DNA of 32,273 bases from Oscillibacter sp. (lineage in GTDB: Bacteria; Bacillota; Clostridia; Oscillospirales; Oscillospiraceae). The position numbers and the translations under genes are program-made. Every line of letters begins with the position of its first letter. The first letter of the stretch is position 1. Shown piece by piece: positions 21,029 to 32,273 of this stretch. The DNA lies in the NCBI GenBank assembly GCA_022652815.1, contig JALCRR010000020.1, forward strand, positions 1-32,273, given 5' to 3'. The notes below the pieces were generated by a model. It saw only the letters and a program-made list of their open reading frames with translations. It was not told the origin of the DNA and did not search any database.

Positions 21029-21478
21029 TTACAGCATTTCTTTGATTTCTTTGCAGAAACTGACAGCAGAGTCCGTGTCCTTCATCACAAGGAAAGCCGT
21101 GTCGTCGCCGGCCAGACTTCCCAGCATAAAGTTGATGCCCATGTCATCGATGGCAGCACAGGCAGCGGAGGCAAGGCCGGGCATGGTCTTGACCACCACA
21201 ATATTCTGGGCGCTTTCAATGCTGGTGATGCTCTCGCGGAAGATCGTGCGCAGCTTTTCCGCGAAGTTCAGCTTGGTGCGGTTCCCGGAAACGGCGTACT
21301 TATAAACGCCCTGTCCCATGGGTTCCTTAATCAGATGCATCTGCTTAATATCGCGGGAAATCGTCGCCTGGGTGCTCGTAATTCCACGGTCAAGCAGCCG
21401 ATCGAGCAGTTGTTCCTGCGTTTCAATATTTTCCTCGGAAATAATCTCGAGAATTTTGCTTTGACGGTCATTTTTCAT
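21029..21478 (-). CDS. argR: Arginine repressor ArgR/AhrC
   Basis: A 149-residue regulator with an N-terminal winged helix (RQSKILEIISEENIETQEQL onward, then STQATISRDIKQM as recognition helix) and a C-terminal arginine-binding, trimerisation domain ending in MLGSLAGDDTAFLVM. It senses arginine and controls arginine metabolism genes. In-frame codons extend upstream to 21511, but the ATG at 21478 has GGGAGG 8 nt ahead and the family N-terminus. It overlaps the end of nadK by 11 nt. Confidence 0.96.
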   Translation of the reverse strand: MKNDRQSKILEIISEENIETQEQLLDRLLDRGITSTQATISRDIKQMHLIKEPMGQGVYKYAVSGNRTKLNFAEKLRTIFRESITSIESAQNIVVVKTMPGLASAACAAIDDMGINFMLGSLAGDDTAFLVMKDTDSAVSFCKEIKEML

Positions 21479-22355
21479 TTTCTTGGCCTCCCGGCAACAT
21501 TTTTTTTGCAAAAACCTCGCAGAAACTCTTTTCGGAAAGGCGAACCAGTTTCAGCGAATGCTTTGATTTTTTCACACAGACTTGATCATCAGGCCGCAGG
21601 GCAAAGGCTCTGCTCTCATCCACGCAGAGGTAAACCGGCTTGCGTCCGTTGCGCACCATGTCAATGGTCAGAAGATGGTTGGGCGAAAGCACATAGGAGG
21701 AAAAGCGCATGTTGTGTGTGCAGATGGGGCAGACCACCATGGCCTCCGCAATCGGCTCCACAACCGGTCCTCCAGCAGAAAGCGAATAAGCGGTAGATCC
21801 GGTGGGCGTAGAAATAATCACGCCGTCACCGGCAATATCCGCCAGATGATGCCCGTCCGAGGCGATTGACAGGTGAATCACATGGGAAATGGGTCCCTCC
21901 CGGATGACAGCGTCGTTCAAGCCCAGATTTTGATAGACCTGCTTGCCGTCCCGCAACACGAGCACATCCAGCATCATGCGGGATTCCATCTCAAAATTCC
22001 AGTCTTTTAACTTGCTTAGGGCATTCAGCTCCGTAGCCTCCAACTCCGCAATAAAGCCCAAGCTGCCCATGTTGATGCCCAGAACAGGGATTTTGTTCAG
22101 TGCCGCCAGTTTGGCGAGATGCAGGATGGTTCCGTCCCCGCCAAAGGTAATCAGAAGATCACTGGTTCGCAGCTCCTGCGCCAGGGGCTTGATGTCAAGA
22201 TCGCCGAAGGAGCCGTCCTTCTGATCGCGGAATGGAGAGCAAATGACTGTTTCAAAGCCATTCGCCTTCAAGATTCTCTCCGCTTCCAGCGTGGTTTTCA
22301 TATCCCGGTCCCGACTGGGATTCGGGCAGAGAACGATTTTCTTTTTCTCATTCAT
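21468..22355 (-). CDS. nadK: NAD kinase
   Basis: A 295-residue ATP-NAD kinase that makes NADP. It has the GGDGT motif at 72-76 (ITFGGDGTILHLA), the GINMGSLGFIAEL segment, and the nucleotide-binding ISTPTGSTAYSLSAGGP. The start overlaps tlyA by 8 nt and the end overlaps argR by 11 nt, so the tlyA-nadK-argR chain is translationally coupled. Confidence 0.97.
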   Translation of the reverse strand: MNEKKKIVLCPNPSRDRDMKTTLEAERILKANGFETVICSPFRDQKDGSFGDLDIKPLAQELRTSDLLITFGGDGTILHLAKLAALNKIPVLGINMGSLGFIAELEATELNALSKLKDWNFEMESRMMLDVLVLRDGKQVYQNLGLNDAVIREGPISHVIHLSIASDGHHLADIAGDGVIISTPTGSTAYSLSAGGPVVEPIAEAMVVCPICTHNMRFSSYVLSPNHLLTIDMVRNGRKPVYLCVDESRAFALRPDDQVCVKKSKHSLKLVRLSEKSFCEVFAKKMLPGGQENEK

Positions 22356-23172
22356 GGGGGGTACCTCCGTGCTCGTTCAATACCAGATGGGACTCATCTA
22401 CCAGCGCCTTCAAATCGAAGGTCTGCTCCGGAAGTTCACCCTTTTCTAAAAAGCCGAGATATTCAATGTTCCCCTCCGGCCCGCGGATGGGAGAATACGT
22501 AAGGCCAAGGACTGTAAAGCCAGATTCCTTTGCGTGAATTAGGAAGTGCTCCAGCACTTCCACATGAACGGCAGGGTCCCGAACAACGCCCTTTTTCCCG
22601 ACCTTTTCCCGTCCGGCCTCAAACTGCGGTTTGACGAGGCAGGCCACATGGCCGTTTTCTTTCAGAATGCTGCAGACCGCAGGAAGAATCAATTTCAGCG
22701 AAATAAAACTCACGTCAATCGACGCAAAATCCAGTTCATCCGGCACCTGTTCGTGGGTCAAAAACCGGGCATTGGTGCGCTCCAGGCAGACAACTCTCGG
22801 GTCGTTTCGCAGCTTCCACGCCAACTGTCCATAGCCTACATCCACAGAAAAGACCTTGACCGCACCGTTTTGCAGCATGCAGTCCGTAAATCCGCCGGTG
22901 GATGCACCAATATCGGCACAGATGCAGCCGTCCAGCGCAATCGGAAAGGTCGCCATGGCCTTTTCCAGCTTCAATCCTCCCCGGCTGACATATTGGAGCG
23001 TATTGCCCCGAATTTCGATTGCAGCGTCGTTTGCAACCGCCGTTCCGGGCTTGTCCACCTTCTGCTGGTTGACATAGACCTGACCGGCCATAATGGTTGC
23101 CTGCGCTTTCTGCCGACTTTCCTGCAAGCCGCGCTCTACCAGCAGAACATCGATTCTTGTCTTATTGCTCAT
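22348..23172 (-). CDS. tlyA: TlyA-family S4/FtsJ RNA methyltransferase (YqxC)
   Basis: A 274-residue protein with an N-terminal S4 RNA-binding domain (1-65; RIDVLLVERGLQESRQKAQ) and an FtsJ-like SAM methyltransferase domain with motif ADIGASTGGFTDCML. The TlyA/YqxC family includes 2'-O-methyltransferases of rRNA and hemolysin-annotated proteins. The open frame extends upstream to 23274 inside dxs, but the ATG at 23172 gives the family start and is preceded by GGAGG. It overlaps dxs by 11 nt. Confidence 0.95.
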   Translation of the reverse strand: MSNKTRIDVLLVERGLQESRQKAQATIMAGQVYVNQQKVDKPGTAVANDAAIEIRGNTLQYVSRGGLKLEKAMATFPIALDGCICADIGASTGGFTDCMLQNGAVKVFSVDVGYGQLAWKLRNDPRVVCLERTNARFLTHEQVPDELDFASIDVSFISLKLILPAVCSILKENGHVACLVKPQFEAGREKVGKKGVVRDPAVHVEVLEHFLIHAKESGFTVLGLTYSPIRGPEGNIEYLGFLEKGELPEQTFDLKALVDESHLVLNEHGGTPHE

Positions 23173-25021
23173 GGTCCATCGCCTCCGTGACCGCCTGCAT
23201 AACACCCTCCGCATCCAGGCCAAAGCTGCGGCGCAGCTGAGCGATGGTTCCCTCGGGAGCAAACGTCTTACCAAGATTCTTCAAAATCAGTTTTTGCGGA
23301 GCTTTCCCCTCCTGTGCAAGAAGTGCGGCCACCCGCTGCCCCACGCAGCCGGCTCCAAAGCAGTCCTCCAACACCAAAAGATACTTTGTTTCCCCAAAAA
23401 ACGGCGCCAGTTCTTTTCCGGAAAGCGGAGAAATTCGGTTCAACTTCAGCACTTCAGCAGAAATGCCCTTCTTTGCCAGCATCTCCGCAGCCGAAAGTAC
23501 CTCGTTGATGAGAACGCCGTAGGAAAGCAGCGTCACATCGGTTCCCTCCCGCAGCCGGACAATGGGTCTCAGGCCCGCGTCATCGCGATAATCCCCTTCC
23601 CCGCCCCGGGGATAACGCACCGCCACTGGGCCGGTGCAATCAAACAAGGCCGTACGGAGCATAGTTCGCGTCTCTGCAAAGCTGGCGGGACAAAATACGG
23701 TGAAACCGGGAATCTCCGATAAAAACAGCGCATCGAAGCAGCCGTGATGGGTTTCCCCATCTGCGCCAACCAGTCCGGCGCGATCTACGCCCAAAACAAC
23801 GTGAAGCTGCTGAAGGGAAATATCATGGATCAGCATATCAAAGCTGCGCTGCAAAAAGCTTGAGTAAACGGCAAAAACGGGAATCAATCCCTGTTTTGCC
23901 ATACCGGCGGACATGGCCGCACCATGGCCTTCCGCAATTCCGACGTCGAAAAAGCGCTTGGGGTATTTCTTTGCAAAGGCCGTCAGCCCGGTTCCGTCCT
24001 CCATGGCAGCAGTGACCGCGCAGATGCGCTCATCCTGTGCGGCGCAGTCGGTTAGAGTCTTGCCAAACACAGAAGAAAAGTTCTCGCCGCCAGACTTCTT
24101 CAAAAGGCCGGTCTCCGGGTCAAACGGCCCAATGCCGTGGAACTTTCCGGGATTGTGTTCCGCAAACGAGTAGCCCTTGCCCTTTACCGTGTTGACATGA
24201 ACCACCACGGGGCAGCGTAACTCCTTCGCCCACTGCAAAACATGGCACAGACGATCCAGGTCGTGTCCGTCAATGGGGCCGAGATAGGTGAAGCCCATAT
24301 CCTCAAAAAGAGTACTGCTGGGCCAGAAGCTCCGCTTCATTGAGGTTTTCAGACGATGGTTGAATCGGTACAGCCCGTTATCCATGGGTTCTTTTCCGAA
24401 GAGATTTCGGTACCATTTTTTAAAGTGATAATACGCAGGTTTTGTCCGCAAATGCCCCAGATGTTTGGACATGGCGCCCACGTTGGGATTGATCGACATG
24501 CCGTTGTCGTTCAAAATCACGATCATCGGCTCCTTGGACGCGCCGGCATTGTTCAACCCCTCATAGGCAAGACCGCCGGTCAGCGCACCGTCTCCGATCA
24601 GAGCAAGCACACTGTAATCCTTGTTTTCCAACGTTCTGGCCCGTGCCATACCCAAAGCAACCGACACGGAGTTAGATGCGTGGCCAGCGATGAATGCGTC
24701 ATGTTCGCTCTCATAAGGCTTTGGAAAGCCCGAAAGTCCACCGAACTGGCGGAGGGTGGAAAACAGCTCTCGCCGCCCGGTTAGAGCCTTATGCACATAG
24801 CATTGGTGCCCCACATCAAAAACCAGTCGGTCCTGTGCGGTATCAAAAACGCGATGGATTGCCACTGTCAGCTCCACCGTGCCAAGGTTGGAAGCCAGAT
24901 GGCCACCGGTTTTGGATACGCTGTTTATTAGGAAGCTGCGCAGTTCCCCACATAAAACCGGGAGATCTTCGCTTGGAAGTGCCTTCACATCCTCCGGTGA
25001 ATGAATATTCTCTAAGATCAC
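23162..25021 (-). CDS. dxs: 1-deoxy-D-xylulose-5-phosphate synthase
   Basis: A 619-residue thiamine-diphosphate enzyme that starts the MEP isoprenoid pathway from pyruvate and glyceraldehyde-3-phosphate. Visible signatures are LVFDVGHQCYVHKALTGR, the ThDP motif GDGALTGGLAYEGLNNAG, LNDNGMSINPNVG and the transketolase-type DRAGLVGADGETHHG. The start is a GTG at 25021 with GAGGAG 8 nt ahead. It lies 18 bp after oapA, and ispA lies upstream across the OLE candidate, so two isoprenoid genes flank the RNA. Confidence 0.97.
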   Translation of the reverse strand: MILENIHSPEDVKALPSEDLPVLCGELRSFLINSVSKTGGHLASNLGTVELTVAIHRVFDTAQDRLVFDVGHQCYVHKALTGRRELFSTLRQFGGLSGFPKPYESEHDAFIAGHASNSVSVALGMARARTLENKDYSVLALIGDGALTGGLAYEGLNNAGASKEPMIVILNDNGMSINPNVGAMSKHLGHLRTKPAYYHFKKWYRNLFGKEPMDNGLYRFNHRLKTSMKRSFWPSSTLFEDMGFTYLGPIDGHDLDRLCHVLQWAKELRCPVVVHVNTVKGKGYSFAEHNPGKFHGIGPFDPETGLLKKSGGENFSSVFGKTLTDCAAQDERICAVTAAMEDGTGLTAFAKKYPKRFFDVGIAEGHGAAMSAGMAKQGLIPVFAVYSSFLQRSFDMLIHDISLQQLHVVLGVDRAGLVGADGETHHGCFDALFLSEIPGFTVFCPASFAETRTMLRTALFDCTGPVAVRYPRGGEGDYRDDAGLRPIVRLREGTDVTLLSYGVLINEVLSAAEMLAKKGISAEVLKLNRISPLSGKELAPFFGETKYLLVLEDCFGAGCVGQRVAALLAQEGKAPQKLILKNLGKTFAPEGTIAQLRRSFGLDAEGVMQAVTEAMDHEQ

Positions 25022-25039: not shown

Positions 25040-25609
25040 TTACTTGGACGAACGATGAAAAATGTGTAAAAATCTGCCCGCGGCAAAAACGACCTGTGTG
25101 CTCTTCTTAATCGCAAAGGTTTTGCCAAGGGCTTTGCCGCCGATGGTCAGGCCAGAAATTAATGCGGTTACGCCGACAGATATGAGTACCGTGTTTAGGC
25201 TAAACACCGTCTGCAGCCGCGCAACAATCACCGCGGCGGTGGTGCCGCTGACAATGCCGCAGATATCGCCCACCACGTCATTGCAGAAGCTGGAAACATG
25301 GCTGGCGTTGTGCAGCAGATTCAGTGCCTCTGAAGCGCCCTTTTCCCGATGGGCGGCCATGGAGTGAAACGGACGTTCATCCGCCGCAGTCACGGCAACA
25401 CCGATCACATCAAACAGGATGCCAAGAAGAATAAAAAGGGCAAGAACTGCCACGGCTACGGCAACTCCGGCTCCGTTCAGCGTCGACTGGGAGAGAAATC
25501 CCAGTGCCGCTGAAAGGCCGATTGCCATAAAAAAGACCCGCAGAATCCACTGATACTGCGGACTTTCCGCGCGTTTTGCCCTTTTTTTTGGTTTTTCGTT
25601 ATGGTCCAC
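25040..25609 (-). CDS. oapA: OapA-type OLE RNA-associated membrane protein
   Basis: A 189-residue protein with a very basic N-terminus (KPKKRAKRAES), membrane segments at about 21-42, 47-74, 108-131 and 136-159, and a basic C-terminus (KALGKTFAIKKS). The central loop DERPFHSMAAHREKGASEAL and the FCNDVVGDICGI segment are distinctive. Homologs are sometimes labelled CorB/DUF21-like, but the CBS and CorC domains of CNNM transporters are absent. Position between a large noncoding region and dxs matches OapA, the membrane protein that anchors OLE RNA. The start is a GTG at 25609 with GGAGG 5 nt ahead. The identification rests on topology and synteny, not a search. Confidence 0.82.
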   Translation of the reverse strand: MDHNEKPKKRAKRAESPQYQWILRVFFMAIGLSAALGFLSQSTLNGAGVAVAVAVLALFILLGILFDVIGVAVTAADERPFHSMAAHREKGASEALNLLHNASHVSSFCNDVVGDICGIVSGTTAAVIVARLQTVFSLNTVLISVGVTALISGLTIGGKALGKTFAIKKSTQVVFAAGRFLHIFHRSSK

Positions 25610-25650
25610 GAAAACCTCCGATTAAGTCACAATAAAATCAATCAAATCAT

Positions 25651-26300
25651 GCTAAAACAGCGGCAGCAGAAAAAGTAAATCTTACGGCTTAGGTCCGGGT
25701 TGGATTTCCCCGCAGCACACCCCTCGTTGCCGATGGAGGCGGTTTCCCCTTCGGCGCTGCGGCACAGCGTCGCCTTCTGTACGACCCGACTGCCACTTAG
25801 TCCGCACTGCAATCCTTTTTCCACTTTGTAACAACAGCCTAGGTGATTTCCACCGCAGAAACATTCGTCTCTTAGCCTCTTTTGCAGAAGTGGTTTCAAG
25901 GAGCAAAGGAACGGCATTTACTCCGGCCGGAGCGAAAGCCGACTGACCTCCCATTCACCATACCCACGCAAGGCAGGCTACGTCTGCACACAGCGTTACG
26001 GGCAAAGCCCGATGCACCGCATTGCAGGTTCCAAATCTGTTTCGTACACAGGCACGGTTACCACAAGGGATTACGTCTATGCACAAGAACAGGTCTCCAC
26101 GAAAACAGGGTCGGGTTAACCATGCCATTGGAGATCGCCCTGAATTCGCAAGTGCGCAAAGCGCACTTCCCCCCAGCACCCACCCGAAACTGGGCGTATC
26201 AAGCAAGCACCAGAGGTTTCATCGATGTGCCCTTTGGAGGATTTTTAGGCCCTCCTTCGGAAACGGCATTTCTGACTAGAATACTGCGCCGCTGTTTAGC
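25651..26300 (-). ncRNA. ole: OLE RNA (ornate large extremophilic RNA) candidate
   Basis: A 650-nt noncoding segment on the minus strand between ispA and oapA, the known position of OLE RNA in Firmicutes (near xseA, xseB, ispA, oapA and dxs). OLE is a roughly 600-nt structured RNA that forms a membrane ribonucleoprotein with OapA and is linked to stress tolerance. The 5' end (26300-26284) pairs with the 3' end (25669-25651) over 17 pairs with two single-U bulges. Inside are strong hairpins such as AAGTGCGC-TTT-GCGCACTT (26168-26150) and CGGGC-TTT-GCCCG (26011-25999). Short ORFs overlap it but none looks like a protein. I did not match the Rfam model; the name rests on synteny, size, structure and the adjacent OapA-type gene. 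Confidence 0.82.
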
Positions 26301-26306
26301 ACATAC

Positions 26307-26335
26307 AGTATATCACGCTTCTCATAAATATACAA
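26307..26335 (-). promoter_or_regulatory. Extended -10 promoter for the OLE RNA
   Basis: Minus-strand TTGTAT (26335-26330), 17-nt spacer, TATACT (26312-26307) preceded by TGA, an extended -10 motif. The predicted start at about 26300 coincides with the first base of the terminal stem of the RNA. Confidence 0.65.
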
Positions 26336-26377
26336 CATATTCCGTATATGCAAACTACAATTTTTTAAAGAAAGTGA

Positions 26378-26460: not shown

Positions 26461-27357
26461 TTAATAGTCTCGCTGTGCTAGCTGATCTGCAAGATACCAA
26501 AGGAATTCGTGCCCCGGTACCTGCTCCACCGCGCTGCGGGCGCGGGATGTGCAGACGCTGATCGTATTGGCGCAACCCTCCAGTCCCAGCACATCCACAA
26601 AAGTGGATTTTCCCTCTTCTTGATCGGAGCCGATGGGCTTGCCAAACGTCTCCTCATTGCCGATCACATCCAGCATATCATCCCGAATTTGGAACGCAAG
26701 TCCGATCTGGCCGGCGTAGTTTTCCGCAGCCTCCCACAGCTTCTTCCCGCTTCCGGATGCCGCGCAGCCCATCAAGCAGGCGGCACGAATCATGGCGCCG
26801 GTTTTCAAATTGTGCACCTCGGTCAGCTCCTGCGCCGTTTGTGGATTATGAAGCGTATCCAGCACCTGTCCCGCCACCATGCCGTGCTGTCCGGAAGCCT
26901 GCGCCAAAACCAGCGCACAGTCCGCTCTCCGGGCCGCATCCAGCTTCGGAGCCGTCAAGATCAGTTCAAACGCGGCCGGCTGCAAGGCATCGCCTGCCAA
27001 AACGGCCATGGTCTCGCCGTAAACCTTGTGGTTGGTGGGCTTGCCCCGGCGCAGATCATCGTCATCCATGCACGGCAAATCGTCGTGAATCAGGGAATAC
27101 GTGTGCACCAGCTCCAGTGCGCAGGCCGCAGGAAGGGCGTCTGCCCAGTTCTCCCCCAGTCCACCCAGACGGGCAAACTCCAGTGCCAGCATCGGCCGCA
27201 GGCGCTTTCCGCCGGCTAGAAGGCTGTACCGCATGGAATCATAGAGATCACTGTAATGCGTCTTTTCCGTGAAAAGCCCGCTTAAAAACGTCTCCACTGC
27301 GTCCCGGTATTCCCGCCGGCGCAGATTGAATTCAGCCTGTTCCATCTTTTCAACCAT
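26461..27357 (-). CDS. ispA: Farnesyl diphosphate synthase-type polyprenyl synthetase
   Basis: A 298-residue all-helical prenyltransferase that condenses DMAPP/GPP with IPP. The first Asp-rich motif is DDLPCMDDDD (Asp92, Asp93, Asp98), followed by RRGKPTNHKVYG; the second is DDMLD (226-230) with GKPIGSDQEEGKST after it. The start may be the ATG at 27357 or the Met four codons later; the local AGAAGGG is too close to the first and far from the second. It follows xseB by 20 bp. It makes the precursor for quinones, undecaprenyl-type lipids and other isoprenoids. Confidence 0.95.
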   Translation of the reverse strand: MVEKMEQAEFNLRRREYRDAVETFLSGLFTEKTHYSDLYDSMRYSLLAGGKRLRPMLALEFARLGGLGENWADALPAACALELVHTYSLIHDDLPCMDDDDLRRGKPTNHKVYGETMAVLAGDALQPAAFELILTAPKLDAARRADCALVLAQASGQHGMVAGQVLDTLHNPQTAQELTEVHNLKTGAMIRAACLMGCAASGSGKKLWEAAENYAGQIGLAFQIRDDMLDVIGNEETFGKPIGSDQEEGKSTFVDVLGLEGCANTISVCTSRARSAVEQVPGHEFLWYLADQLAQRDY

Positions 27358-29400: not shown

Positions 29401-29772
29401 TCAAGCGATGGTCACACCGCCAACATGAATATTGACCATTCCAACGGAGCAGCCCGTCATGGCCTCAACAGCGGCGGCGACTGCCTTTTGTGCGTTCTCG
29501 GCAACCTCCGGAATCGGATGGCCGTACTGCACCGTCAGATAAATGTCCAGAGCCATGGCTGTCCCGGTCATGTCGATCTTGACGCCCTTGGTGCCCTTCT
29601 GGGCGCTTTTCTTGGCGGTCAGATCCGTCACGCTGCCCATGCTGGTCATCATGCCGGAAACGCCCTCTACATCGCGCACAGCGCCCACAGCGATGGCAGC
29701 GATGACTTCTTCGGATATATTGATGCTGCCGTTTTCTTCCGGCAGAGTCATGTATTCTTTGCTTTCGCCCAT
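29401..29772 (-). CDS. yqhY: Asp23/Gls24-family protein YqhY
   Basis: A 123-residue Asp23 (alkaline shock) domain protein: INISEEVIAAIAVGAVRDVEGVSGM, central part, and the C-terminal VNIHVGGVTIA. In Bacilli yqhY lies directly before nusB and is linked to control of acetyl-CoA carboxylase. Here accB and accC, which precede it in B. subtilis, are absent and the spoIIIA operon is next. A GTG at 29790 is possible, but the ATG at 29772 has GAGGAG about 10 nt ahead. It has its own promoter. Confidence 0.9.
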   Translation of the reverse strand: MGESKEYMTLPEENGSINISEEVIAAIAVGAVRDVEGVSGMMTSMGSVTDLTAKKSAQKGTKGVKIDMTGTAMALDIYLTVQYGHPIPEVAENAQKAVAAAVEAMTGCSVGMVNIHVGGVTIA

Positions 29773-29837
29773 CTTACATTCGCTCCTCACTCTTCGTATC
29801 GTTGGTATAAGCGGACTTTTGCTTTTACTGTTTTGCT

Positions 29838-29866
29838 ATTTTACCATAAAAGGGTCAAAAATACAA
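29838..29866 (-). promoter_or_regulatory. Promoter for yqhY-nusB
   Basis: Minus-strand TTGTAT (29866-29861), 17-nt spacer, TAAAAT (29843-29838) preceded by TGG, an extended -10. It separates the vegetative yqhY-nusB pair from the sporulation-specific spoIIIA genes upstream. Confidence 0.6.
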
Positions 29867-29869
29867 CAG

Positions 29870-30448
29870 CTAATTTGCCGCCATAATTTTAACCGTGCTG
29901 GCCGGATATCCGGTTTCGCTGACCGTGATATCCTTAATTTTTGCCACATCTTGATCGGTCAGCTCCCCGGAGTCGGTAGAAACCACGACGCTGACGGAAT
30001 CATCGCCCATAAACGCAACGCAGTCGGCATATCCCTTGGCCGTCACCAGGTTTTCAATCTGTGCCTCTTTCATGGTGTAGGAGGCCAAAACCTGGATGCC
30101 CTCCGATGCCTCATTGGCAACGCTCTGGGCTGCGCCGTCTTCCGCCGCGGCCTGCTCCAAAAGACCGATGGCATTGTCCCGTGCCTGCTGGCGGGTCAAT
30201 CTGGCGGAGGCGAAATAGTCGGAGCCCGTATCGGTATACACCGCTTCTTCGTCGACTGCGCCGGATGCGGTGGCCGCTGCCGCCGCCGCGGAAGAATCCG
30301 CCCCGGAGACCAGCGTGGATTCACCCAAAATTTTTCCGCCGGTTTGCTGTGGGGTGTTCCCCGAATACTTCCAGTTTAAAAATGCGGCAGCCCCCACCAG
30401 CACCAGCATGGTTGCAACCAAAACGCCCTGCTTCCAGTTCCGTTTCAT
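29870..30448 (-). CDS. spoIIIAH: Stage III sporulation protein AH
   Basis: A 192-residue protein with one N-terminal membrane helix (about 7-25) and a long Ala/Ser/Asp-rich linker. Its C-terminal YscJ/FliF-like ring-building domain contains RLTRQQARDNAIGLLEQAA and ends near VKIMAAN. SpoIIIAH in the mother-cell membrane pairs with forespore SpoIIQ to form the feeding-tube channel. An ATG at 30481 is in frame, but the ATG at 30448 has GGAGGAGG about 9 nt ahead. It is the last gene of the spoIIIA operon. Confidence 0.92.
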   Translation of the reverse strand: MKRNWKQGVLVATMLVLVGAAAFLNWKYSGNTPQQTGGKILGESTLVSGADSSAAAAAATASGAVDEEAVYTDTGSDYFASARLTRQQARDNAIGLLEQAAAEDGAAQSVANEASEGIQVLASYTMKEAQIENLVTAKGYADCVAFMGDDSVSVVVSTDSGELTDQDVAKIKDITVSETGYPASTVKIMAAN

Positions 30449-30468
30449 GAAACCGTTCCTCCTCCAAA

Positions 30469-30999
30469 TTATGATTGACATTTCACCACCGAAATCCGAT
30501 CCGAGCCAAGCCCCGTCAAGGCGGCAACGGCCTGTGTCACCGCCAGCTTCACATCTGCACGGTTTGCGCCCTGACAGACCACCAGAGCGCCGCGATAAAC
30601 CGGACCGCAGCTTTCCGTCACAATCGGTTCGTCACCGTTTTCCCCCGATACCACCACCGTCGTGGACTTTCGGGAGTAATCCTCCGGCGCCGCCGTTTCT
30701 CCGCTGTAAGAAAGCTCCGTGTCCGCAGCCAACTGTTTTTTGTTGCTGGTTTCCATGGTCAGCATGAGCTGCAATTCTCCCACTCCATCAATTTTTGAAA
30801 GAATCTGCTCCATTTTTTCCTCCGTTTGTGCAAGCTGATCGCTGTCCTCTAAAACGGCAGGGGTTGCCGTTTTTTCCGCACTTTTTCGGGAGCCTGTGGG
30901 CCACAGCAGCAATACGATGCCGATCAGCAGTACAAGACCCACAAATTTGTAACGGCTCCAGCAAAGTCGAAATTTTTCAGCCGCTTTTTCCCGTTCCAT
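30469..30999 (-). CDS. spoIIIAG: Stage III sporulation protein AG
   Basis: A 176-residue protein with a cytoplasmic N-terminus, a membrane helix at about 18-36, and a ring-building domain with MEQILSKIDGVGELQLMLTM and the C-terminal VKLAVTQAVAALTGLGSDRI. It forms the large ring of the SpoIIIA-SpoIIQ channel. The frame is open upstream to 31116, but the ATG at 30999 has AGGTG ahead and the family start. It overlaps spoIIIAF by 23 nt. Confidence 0.92.
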   Translation of the reverse strand: MEREKAAEKFRLCWSRYKFVGLVLLIGIVLLLWPTGSRKSAEKTATPAVLEDSDQLAQTEEKMEQILSKIDGVGELQLMLTMETSNKKQLAADTELSYSGETAAPEDYSRKSTTVVVSGENGDEPIVTESCGPVYRGALVVCQGANRADVKLAVTQAVAALTGLGSDRISVVKCQS

Positions 31000-31462
31000 G
31001 GTACACCTGCCTTTCCTTGGGAATTCCGAGATTTTTTGAAAGATCCTCTTGCAGCCGCGCATCAAGCGCGCAGTCCAGCTCCACACTGTACGGGCAGGGC
31101 GTACCGTCCGCGTCATTTTTTGTCGTGACTACGGGCGTACAGTCGATGCCAAGCGCGGCTGCCTCGTCCTTTATATATGCCTCGGTTTTTTCAGCTATGA
31201 GTTTTGACAGTTCTTCCTGCGTGTCACTTTGCAGTTCTTCCTGCCTTGCCGCAATTTTTTCTTCATAGTCTCCGTAATCCAACTTCAAGTCCCCTACATC
31301 CAACCCTTTGACCGGCAGCAACAAAACGATGAGCAGGAGCAGCCCCCCAGTCATGGAGGCAATTTTTCGCAGCGTTCCTTCCGGAATCAGACTCTGGGCA
31401 AGCGTTATTAGAATGGAGACCGCCACCACGGCCGTCAGCCAAACCCGCACCTTTTCCATCAT
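30977..31462 (-). CDS. spoIIIAF: Stage III sporulation protein AF
   Basis: A 161-residue protein with two N-terminal membrane helices (about 8-26 and 33-51) and a soluble domain that contains a charged helix at 68-95 and ends with the SVELDC...ERQVYHG region. It is a membrane component of the SpoIIIA channel complex. The start ATGATG overlaps the spoIIIAE stop (TGA inside ATGATG). Confidence 0.92.
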   Translation of the reverse strand: MMEKVRVWLTAVVAVSILITLAQSLIPEGTLRKIASMTGGLLLLIVLLLPVKGLDVGDLKLDYGDYEEKIAARQEELQSDTQEELSKLIAEKTEAYIKDEAAALGIDCTPVVTTKNDADGTPCPYSVELDCALDARLQEDLSKNLGIPKERQVYHGTGKSG

Positions 31463-32273
31463 GGTGTCACCGCCGCCACGAAGGACATAATGGAGACCAA
31501 CAGCAGCAGTGCGCAGGCCCCGGTCATGCCCAAAACCAGTCCGAACGCACCGCCCAGTCCATCAATCAGCCGGCAAAGTCCGGTGGAGCCAACCGTCCCG
31601 GCAAGGAACGCCGTCAGCTTGTACAGCAGGTACTGGATACCAAGCTGTAAGAAGGGGTACGCGCAGATCGAGAGAATCGCCAGCGTACCGAACACGCCGA
31701 TGGTTCCTTTCAAGACGCCCGCTCCTGCCAGCACCGTTTCGGACGCCTCCGACAGAATGCTACCCACCACGGGCACCGCTCCGGAAATGGCCGCGCGGGC
31801 GACTTTGACGGCAGCGCCATCCGCCGTTCCGGCAATCACCCGCACCACGGAGAGATAGACCGTAAAGGCAATCAGAACTGCGCTTAAAATCCAAACCACA
31901 ATTTTTTTCAGCGCGTCGGCAATGCCTCCCAATCTGTTTTCCGGCAGCATGGCAGCCGCCGTTAAGGCCCCGATGTACAGATAAACCGCCGGCAGCAACA
32001 GCCCTTGAATCAGTTGCAGCAAAAGATCAACGAAAAACACCGTCGTCACCTGCTGCACGGTGGCAGAGCCCACCGCGCCCGCAGTTGCAGCCGCTGCCGC
32101 CAGCGTGGGGAGCAAAACCTTGGAAAAATCGCTCATCGCGCGAATCGTCTCCGCGCCCAATCCAATCAGAGAATCCAAGCTGCCTGCCGTCAGTAAAGAG
32201 ATGGACAGTGCTCCTGCCATCGCCGTCAGATTGAGGCTTTTTGCGCCTGCTCCCTGTCCAAATCCGTCCACCA
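31459..32273 (-). CDS. spoIIIAE: Stage III sporulation protein AE, 3' part (cut by window edge)
   Basis: The last 271 or so codons of a polytopic membrane protein; the N-terminal part lies beyond the right edge (family length is near 390-400 residues). At least six hydrophobic segments are visible, with LIQGLLLPAVYLYIGALTAA, GAVPVVGSILSEASETVLAG and a C-terminal LLLLVSIMSFVAAVTP. Such proteins form the membrane-embedded part of the SpoIIIA complex. The reading frame stays open through the edge. Confidence 0.92.
   Translation of the reverse strand, partial: VDGFGQGAGAKSLNLTAMAGALSISLLTAGSLDSLIGLGAETIRAMSDFSKVLLPTLAAAAATAGAVGSATVQQVTTVFFVDLLLQLIQGLLLPAVYLYIGALTAAAMLPENRLGGIADALKKIVVWILSAVLIAFTVYLSVVRVIAGTADGAAVKVARAAISGAVPVVGSILSEASETVLAGAGVLKGTIGVFGTLAILSICAYPFLQLGIQYLLYKLTAFLAGTVGSTGLCRLIDGLGGAFGLVLGMTGACALLLLVSIMSFVAAVTP

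Follow-up and report, generated by a model that had tools for sequence, protein, structure and literature searches.

The gap between ispA and oapA in a genome of Oscillibacter sp. holds a genuine full-length gene for OLE RNA, confirmed as a member of this known class, and the RNA departs from the Rfam consensus of the class by a covarying hairpin added in the joining region J5/6. The window, by which the whole analysed stretch of 32,273 nucleotides is meant (assembly GCA_022652815.1, contig JALCRR010000020.1), belongs to a genome of 2.25 Mb in 69 contigs that is 96% complete. The RNA, its protein set, the helix, a conserved promoter and gene losses, the last partly by synteny, were all obtained by computation, and the explanation of the whole to which we give a probability of roughly three quarters is that OLE is made from its own promoter and that the helix disfavours k-turn 1a, whereby OapC would have become dispensable and been lost and the helix would have grown, a k-turn switch and an order of events that we infer.

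OLE ranks among the largest structured RNAs of bacteria, its biochemical role being still unsettled, and two competing k-turn forms have been proposed at the site where OapC binds; a clade in which OLE is kept, the OapC site altered and OapC often missing provides a way to tell which k-turn matters. While OLE, OapA, OapB, OapC and their neighbourhood are already known, the J5/6 helix with its expansion and its relation to OapC, as well as a joint loss of ole and oapA that preserves the promoter, are new as far as the searched literature goes: the main texts of PMC11332333, PMC9723947 and PMC12054373 contain neither Oscillospiraceae nor an added stem at the J5/6 site, and figures or supplements of these papers may show the helix.

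The OLE locus and its promoter

The covariance model of OLE (RF01071) matches the minus strand over positions 1 to 616 of 616 with 401.9 bits against a gathering cut-off of 50 (E 7.1e-115), the sole Rfam match within the window at gathering scores, which bears out the original prediction, made from the letters alone, that a structured segment of about 650 nt is OLE. Its further suggestion that a member from this lineage could be divergent stands for one extra helix as the clear difference, whereas the RNA itself is complete. Between the stop of ispA (26461) and the start of oapA (25609) the list of open reading frames leaves 851 nt, close to the gap of 840 bp foreseen and mostly filled by the OLE match, and the predicted span of 25040 to 26300 is accurate as well, oapA ending at 25040 and the RNA, as judged from the −10 box, probably starting near 26300, with the 5′ end of the model overlapping that box (Table 1).

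The OLE gene stands directly before oapA in the order spoIIIAE-AF-(AG)-AH, asp23, nusB, xseA, xseB, ispA, OLE, oapA, dxs, tlyA, nadK, argR and recN. The neighbours from ispA to recN had been named correctly, as Pfam matches to polyprenyl synthetase, dxs, a tlyA-like FtsJ/S4 protein, NAD kinase, argR and a recN-like SMC protein indicate, and further matches cover xseA, xseB, nusB, asp23 and spoIIIAE/AF/AH; a 215-residue reading frame at the place of spoIIIAG has no Pfam match at E 0.001. A few genes further upstream (29404–32271), OLE shares its strand with spoIIIAE/AF/AH and asp23, in agreement with the published link to sporulation genes. With full-length OLE RNAs (Fernando and Breaker, 2024) the window's RNA shares the complete match, the A-rich P4 loop, the symmetric GGCC loop, described as the P9 kissing loop in the text of PMC12286853, and the site before oapA, and argR and nadK are among the reported neighbours of ole. 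For relatives, OLE is described as dimeric, as located at the membrane together with OapA and as linked to tolerance of metals and stress (passages of PMC12265935), and an association of ArgR with OLE RNA has been reported from H. halodurans (passages of PMC10898510). The published OLE variants 1 and 2, as given in the main text of PMC11332333, concern P7–P9 and P13.

Table 1. Features of the OLE locus in the window (positions of the 32,273-nt stretch)
Feature	Position	Strand	Basis
argR, neighbour	21029..21511	-	Pfam
dxs, next gene, probably same transcription unit	23162..25021	-	Pfam; promoter retained before dxs in two congeners without ole and oapA
oapA, 189 aa, basic N-terminus, all-helical model, GTG start	25040..25609	-	
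OLE RNA, full length	25644..26308	-	RF01071 covariance model 1–616
Self-complementary stretch (CUCCGGCCGGAG) at the place of the symmetric P9 kissing loop	25921..25932	-	Rfam alignment
J6/7 (CGUGGAGACC), other strand of the cryo-EM k-turn form (probable mapping)	26092..26101	-	
Extra 8-bp hairpin in J5/6 (AAGUGCGC UUU GCGCACUU)	26150..26168	-	18-nt insert relative to Rfam consensus
J4a/5, bulged k-turn strand (CAUCGAUGAA; probable mapping)	26218..26227	-	
Hairpin with A-rich loop (CUAAAAA), dimer-contact loop of P4 in the published model (putative P4)	26236..26255	-	Rfam alignment
OLE promoter: TTGTAT (−35, 26335–26330), 17-nt spacer, extended −10 TGaTATACT (−10, 26312–26307)	26307..26335	-	
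Inverted repeat ATATAC-N10-GTATAT over −35, operator-like	26328..26349	.	only match across the window; absent from 100 shuffles
ispA (polyprenyl synthetase), upstream neighbour	26461..27357	-	Pfam

A conserved promoter of sigma-A type is predicted for OLE itself. The extended −10 element TGnTATACT precedes OLE in 31 of the 32 genus members with enough upstream sequence and the fuller TTGnAT-17-TATACT in 28 of them, while among the 120 OLE loci that have 80 nt or more upstream, 102 show the relaxed pattern TTG-N20-TA-N3-T; 200 base shuffles of these regions give 6 on average and 15 at most. Within the matches, bases outside the search pattern are conserved too, TG before the −10 box in 90 and 89% and an ATT opening the spacer in 75–85%. 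The output of a general promoter scan lacks this promoter, and its two hits are near chance. Such a conserved promoter offers a handle on when OLE is made in gut bacteria.

The inverted repeat over the −35 element looks like an operator for some regulator; its exact 6-bp arms are kept in 15 of the 32 genus members, and it also lies before dxs in both congeners without OLE described below, one copy with an altered base. In many other genera the promoter spacer begins with ATATTCA. An ArgR box was considered for the promoter, the conserved TTGnATATTCA resembling half-sites of arginine boxes, and was rejected on the spacing, which does not fit. On the minus strand, a terminator-like hairpin (26403–26378) follows ispA ahead of the OLE promoter and might mark a border between two transcription units; such sites also arise by chance, the scanned stretch having five against 2.8 expected.

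OapA, its joint loss with OLE and the partner proteins

The 189-residue protein aligns with OapA proteins encoded next to OLE in a set of 66 rows (59 of 76 candidate loci, six loci of named organisms and the window), the others being 33–72% identical to it with 12 invariant columns. This kinship confirms its identification as OapA, and the named organisms, among them Papillibacter cinnamivorans, Clostridium ihumii, C. sulfidigenes and Thermosediminibacter, have OLE in these loci too. With OapA of such OLE-bearing Bacillota it has a signature in common over the length of the protein, and nothing notable sets it apart. Among the best 80 of 287 matches the best named relatives are from Oscillospiraceae, headed by a protein 77% identical from an Oscillibacter metagenome-assembled genome.

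That the protein would typically be mislabelled as CNNM/CorB was likewise a sound expectation. Its AlphaFold model is all-helical (mean pLDDT 90.5), the four best PDB matches of this model in Foldseek are CNNM/CorC proteins, the best with E 0.008 and none reaching E 0.001, and the Pfam CNNM model scores 22.6 bits, below its cut-off of 28.4. Structure comparison thus suggests a weak likeness to the transmembrane fold of MpfA/CorB/CNNM transporters, and the distant relatedness of OapA and MpfA given in the main text of PMC11332333 fits this. Unlike those transporters, the window protein has no CBS or CorC match in Pfam at E≤1, and no MpfA-type CorC_HlyC domain was found by Pfam in its genome. 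An identity as CNNM/CorB was accordingly rejected for the protein, which groups with OapA. An ordinary CNNM/CorB magnesium transporter beside an unrelated RNA segment, which the sub-threshold Pfam score and the PDB matches would have favoured, would in addition leave unexplained why a relative of OapA follows OLE at 123 of 129 OLE loci (three of the other six have less than 400 nt left after OLE) and why this type of protein was lost together with OLE in two congeners; this alternative is already refuted by grouping and co-occurrence, and its probability is very small.

Among 60 relatives OLE was found in 45 and OapA in 47, the two additional OapA genomes (G002, G021) showing 3′ pieces of OLE at contig edges with 28.1 and 59.3 bits, the former below the cut-off. 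In the sample of the order the same 13 of 23 genomes hold both, and in the genus OapA is encoded by 34 of 37 genomes, 32 of them with OLE and two with an OLE cut by a contig end. Three genomes deviate: G041 has, besides the oapA next to OLE, another oapA-like gene (L058) near a contig end, with 40% identity to the window protein and no visible OLE; in G037 OLE and oapA reside on different contigs (L012, L057), an apparently unlinked pair, the 1.3 kb after OLE being free of oapA; and G262 shows at a contig end (L157) a 314-nt match spanning model positions 1 to 616, perhaps a broken assembly or a degenerate copy.

Two congeners, G004 and G012, are without OLE and OapA even though dxs lies well inside the contig, and the sequence before dxs contains neither OLE at E≤0.1 nor oapA. 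Retained before dxs is the OLE promoter TTGTAT-17-TATACT (L292:2171–2212 and L293:2273–2314), in G012 between ispA and dxs and in G004 with no ispA within 2.4 kb. Thus ole and oapA have gone together, with the promoter now standing before dxs. Such a loss indicates that ole-oapA behaves as one unit and supplies natural deletions that can be compared with relatives. The third genus member without OLE or OapA, G008, is uninformative on loss, its contig beginning inside dxs. G004 shows two CorC_HlyC matches, and a search of G012 (71% complete) found no such match. In the order sample this domain exceeds its cut-off in none of 13 OLE-bearing genomes, with a weak match below it in G038, and is found in nine of the ten OLE-less genomes, the tenth being 55% complete, a pattern that repeats the published anticorrelation of OLE and MpfA. 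The genus is looser in this respect: CorC_HlyC is found in 8 of 37 genomes, seven of which have OLE or OapA.

Both further partners that the original prediction proposed to look for are encoded in the window's genome. OapB is a 94-residue KOW protein between map and infA, for which the PDB offers a single match at E≤1, OLE-associated protein B (7k9b, E 3.3e-8), and relatives of it occur in all ten infA loci fetched of twelve located. The Pfam KOW search was too insensitive for OapB, as the protein was then found by infA synteny; in the window's genome that search gave only two matches, judged by size to be NusG and L24. OapC is an L7Ae-type protein between rpoC and rpsL with YbxF as best PDB match (E 1.8e-11). 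A Pfam L7Ae search for OapC mixed in longer frames, which by their size we take to be RlmB-like, and was replaced by a profile of 21 OapC proteins, with which 148 genomes were searched.

The additional helix in J5/6

Relative to the Rfam model, the window's RNA has an 18-nt insert between two hairpins that probably are P5 and P6. According to the main text of PMC9723947, the OapC-binding k-turn of H. halodurans comprises nucleotides 83–96 and 136–147, which cover J4a/5 and J5/6 plus the left side of P6; the cryo-EM structure, as described in the text of PMC12286853, instead has a k-turn of J4a/5 with J6/7, and the main text of PMC12054373 gives three structures that exclude one another, with k-turns named 1a and 1b. 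By these published coordinates the insert would map to J5/6 and hence to one strand of the OapC-binding k-turn.

Across the order 129 OLE sequences were collected, of which 126 could be parsed; two of the three others (G130 and G236, not G292) visibly carry the helix. J5/6 measures 11–15 nt in 37 and 26–193 nt in 89 of the parsed RNAs, with no length in between. All 68 distinct inserts of 26–35 nt in the family fold to a hairpin of at least 4 bp, compared with none of the 37 J5/6 regions without insert. When these 68 inserts are aligned, 96.0% of cells are paired, seven of the eight helix pairs change on both sides and the eighth is invariant, and two-sided changes amount to 109 cells versus 35.7 in shuffles (0 of 500 as high), while sliding the partner by one to three columns leaves at most 48.6% paired. 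Covariation together with pairing shows that the J5/6 helix is real.

On a tree of OLE without J5/6 (124 rows, omitting G130, G236, G292, G262 and G026) at least two changes of the helix are required, one in G043 and the other at the base of a group of 87 Oscillospiraceae rows, whose SH-aLRT of 91 falls short of the starred level of 95. Of the loci of named organisms 29 of 80 were parsed by script, and Butyricicoccus, two Bacilli and two Oscillospiraceae among them have a J5/6 of 11–13 nt; OLE of Clostridium and Thermosediminibacter has a short J5/6 as judged by eye.

How the parts might work together can be outlined as follows. OLE, oapA and dxs would be co-transcribed from the OLE promoter, and, by analogy to studied relatives, an OLE dimer would be held at the membrane by OapA, a CNNM-like and putative metal-ion transport protein, with OapB and OapC binding the RNA, which would help the cell to withstand metal and other stresses. 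In a clade of Oscillospiraceae a helix would have been inserted, most simply once, into J5/6, which forms the second strand of the OapC-bound k-turn 1a, and the helix may there block or reshape k-turn 1a and favour k-turn 1b (J4a/5 with J6/7), formed without protein. OapC would then have been dispensable and lost several times, and only thereafter would the helix have grown to 40–193 nt.

OapC and the two proposed k-turns

Among family genomes at least 90% complete, 27 helix-bearing ones have OapC and 23 do not, compared with 18 and one of those without the helix (Fisher p 0.0014); G015, G023 and G140, in which rpsL was also not found, were set aside in counts with a completeness cut. As a cause of OapC loss the helix nevertheless receives no support from the tree-based test, strong as the 2×2 table looks: of two independent pairs a mean of 0.4 is with, 0.2 against and 1.4 tied, which is no signal, and one OapC-less clade carries most of the association. 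OapC-less genomes of at least 90% completeness without the helix number two (G299 and G045), and OapC changes at least seven times on the OLE tree. Nor does the helix alone abolish OapC, since both coexist in the window's genome and in 40 of 72 OLEs with short inserts (40 of 89 helix-bearing ones altogether).

A J5/6 of at least 40 nt (up to 193) is confined to genomes without detected OapC (17 of 17 OLEs; 11 of the 17 genomes at least 90% complete). All five gains of a long J5/6 placed by parsimony fall on OapC-less branches, for which the length-weighted chance is 0.04, such branches making up 53% of the length of the helix clade, while five independent pairs yield two with, none against and three tied (p 0.5), significance requiring at least six pairs with a difference in OapC. 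The link between a long J5/6 and missing OapC is thus a lead and not a result, weakened by phylogeny. As to the loss itself, OapC was not found near rpsL in any of the 26 OapC-less genomes examined, whereas three controls show it in place; in 12 of the 26 rpoC ends 129–762 nt before rpsL, so that the gene is gone from its place, and in the other 14, with rpoC not in reach, loss rests on the profile search of incomplete genomes.

One tentative and rather doubtful interpretation is that an RNA helix replaced a protein, locking k-turn 1b so that OapC, essential in H. halodurans, became unneeded and was lost repeatedly, and that the helix, freed from OapC, lengthened to as much as 193 nt, in the manner of the expansion segments of rRNA. 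If true, the clade would be a natural experiment in which the two k-turns proposed for OLE can be told apart. Its odds are slightly lowered by the OLE-less genomes of the family, of which 8 of 14 are without OapC and 6 with it: OapC is often missing without OLE too, and in this respect the helix-bearing group is closer to the OLE-less one. OapC also occurs without OLE and has other roles, as stated in the main text of PMC11332333, for which reason its loss may be unrelated to OLE.

The counts in OLE-less genomes, together with the non-significant independent pairs and the concentration of most OapC-less genomes in one clade, are in line with a J5/6 that simply tolerates growth as a neutral expansion segment and with an OapC loss that coincides with it through shared ancestry, a quite possible reading that falls somewhat short of even odds. 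It is at variance with the gap in the length distribution of J5/6, which does not look like that of a freely growing loop, with the base of the helix, which 16 of the 17 long inserts keep in their predicted folds (the exception is G279), and with the five placed length gains, all of which lie on OapC-less branches.

Alternatively, the helix may produce a k-junction, defined in PMC10573300 as a kink turn whose non-bulged strand carries an additional helix and described there for TPP riboswitches and the DUF-3268 RNA, which OapC would still bind, its loss being unrelated. The layout of k-turn 1a plus helix resembles this definition, a resemblance only, with J5/6 probably on the non-bulged side of k-turn 1a according to the main text of PMC9723947, and the frequency of OapC among helix-bearing genomes is in line with it; the restriction of long inserts to genomes where no OapC was found is left unexplained, and we regard a k-junction that is still bound as unlikely. 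The species of the window, having both helix and OapC, does not decide between this and the proposal of k-turn 1b.

For the preferred reading, in which the helix disfavours k-turn 1a, the motifs of the k-turn strands can be followed, C-NNN-GA of J4a/5 and GGAG of J6/7 being taken as marks of k-turn 1b by interpretation of published text. In the OapC-less, helix-bearing OLEs of genomes at least 90% complete, C-NNN-GA is present in 22 of 23, the one miss being an OLE cut by a contig end, and GGAG in 23 of 23; helix-less OLEs with OapC have C-NNN-GA in 30 and GGAG in 28 of 33, all five GGAG misses lying outside the family. AAGG of J5/6 occurs in 26 of 33 helix-less OLEs with OapC, in 7 of 40 helix-bearing ones with OapC and in 2 of 23 helix-bearing ones without.
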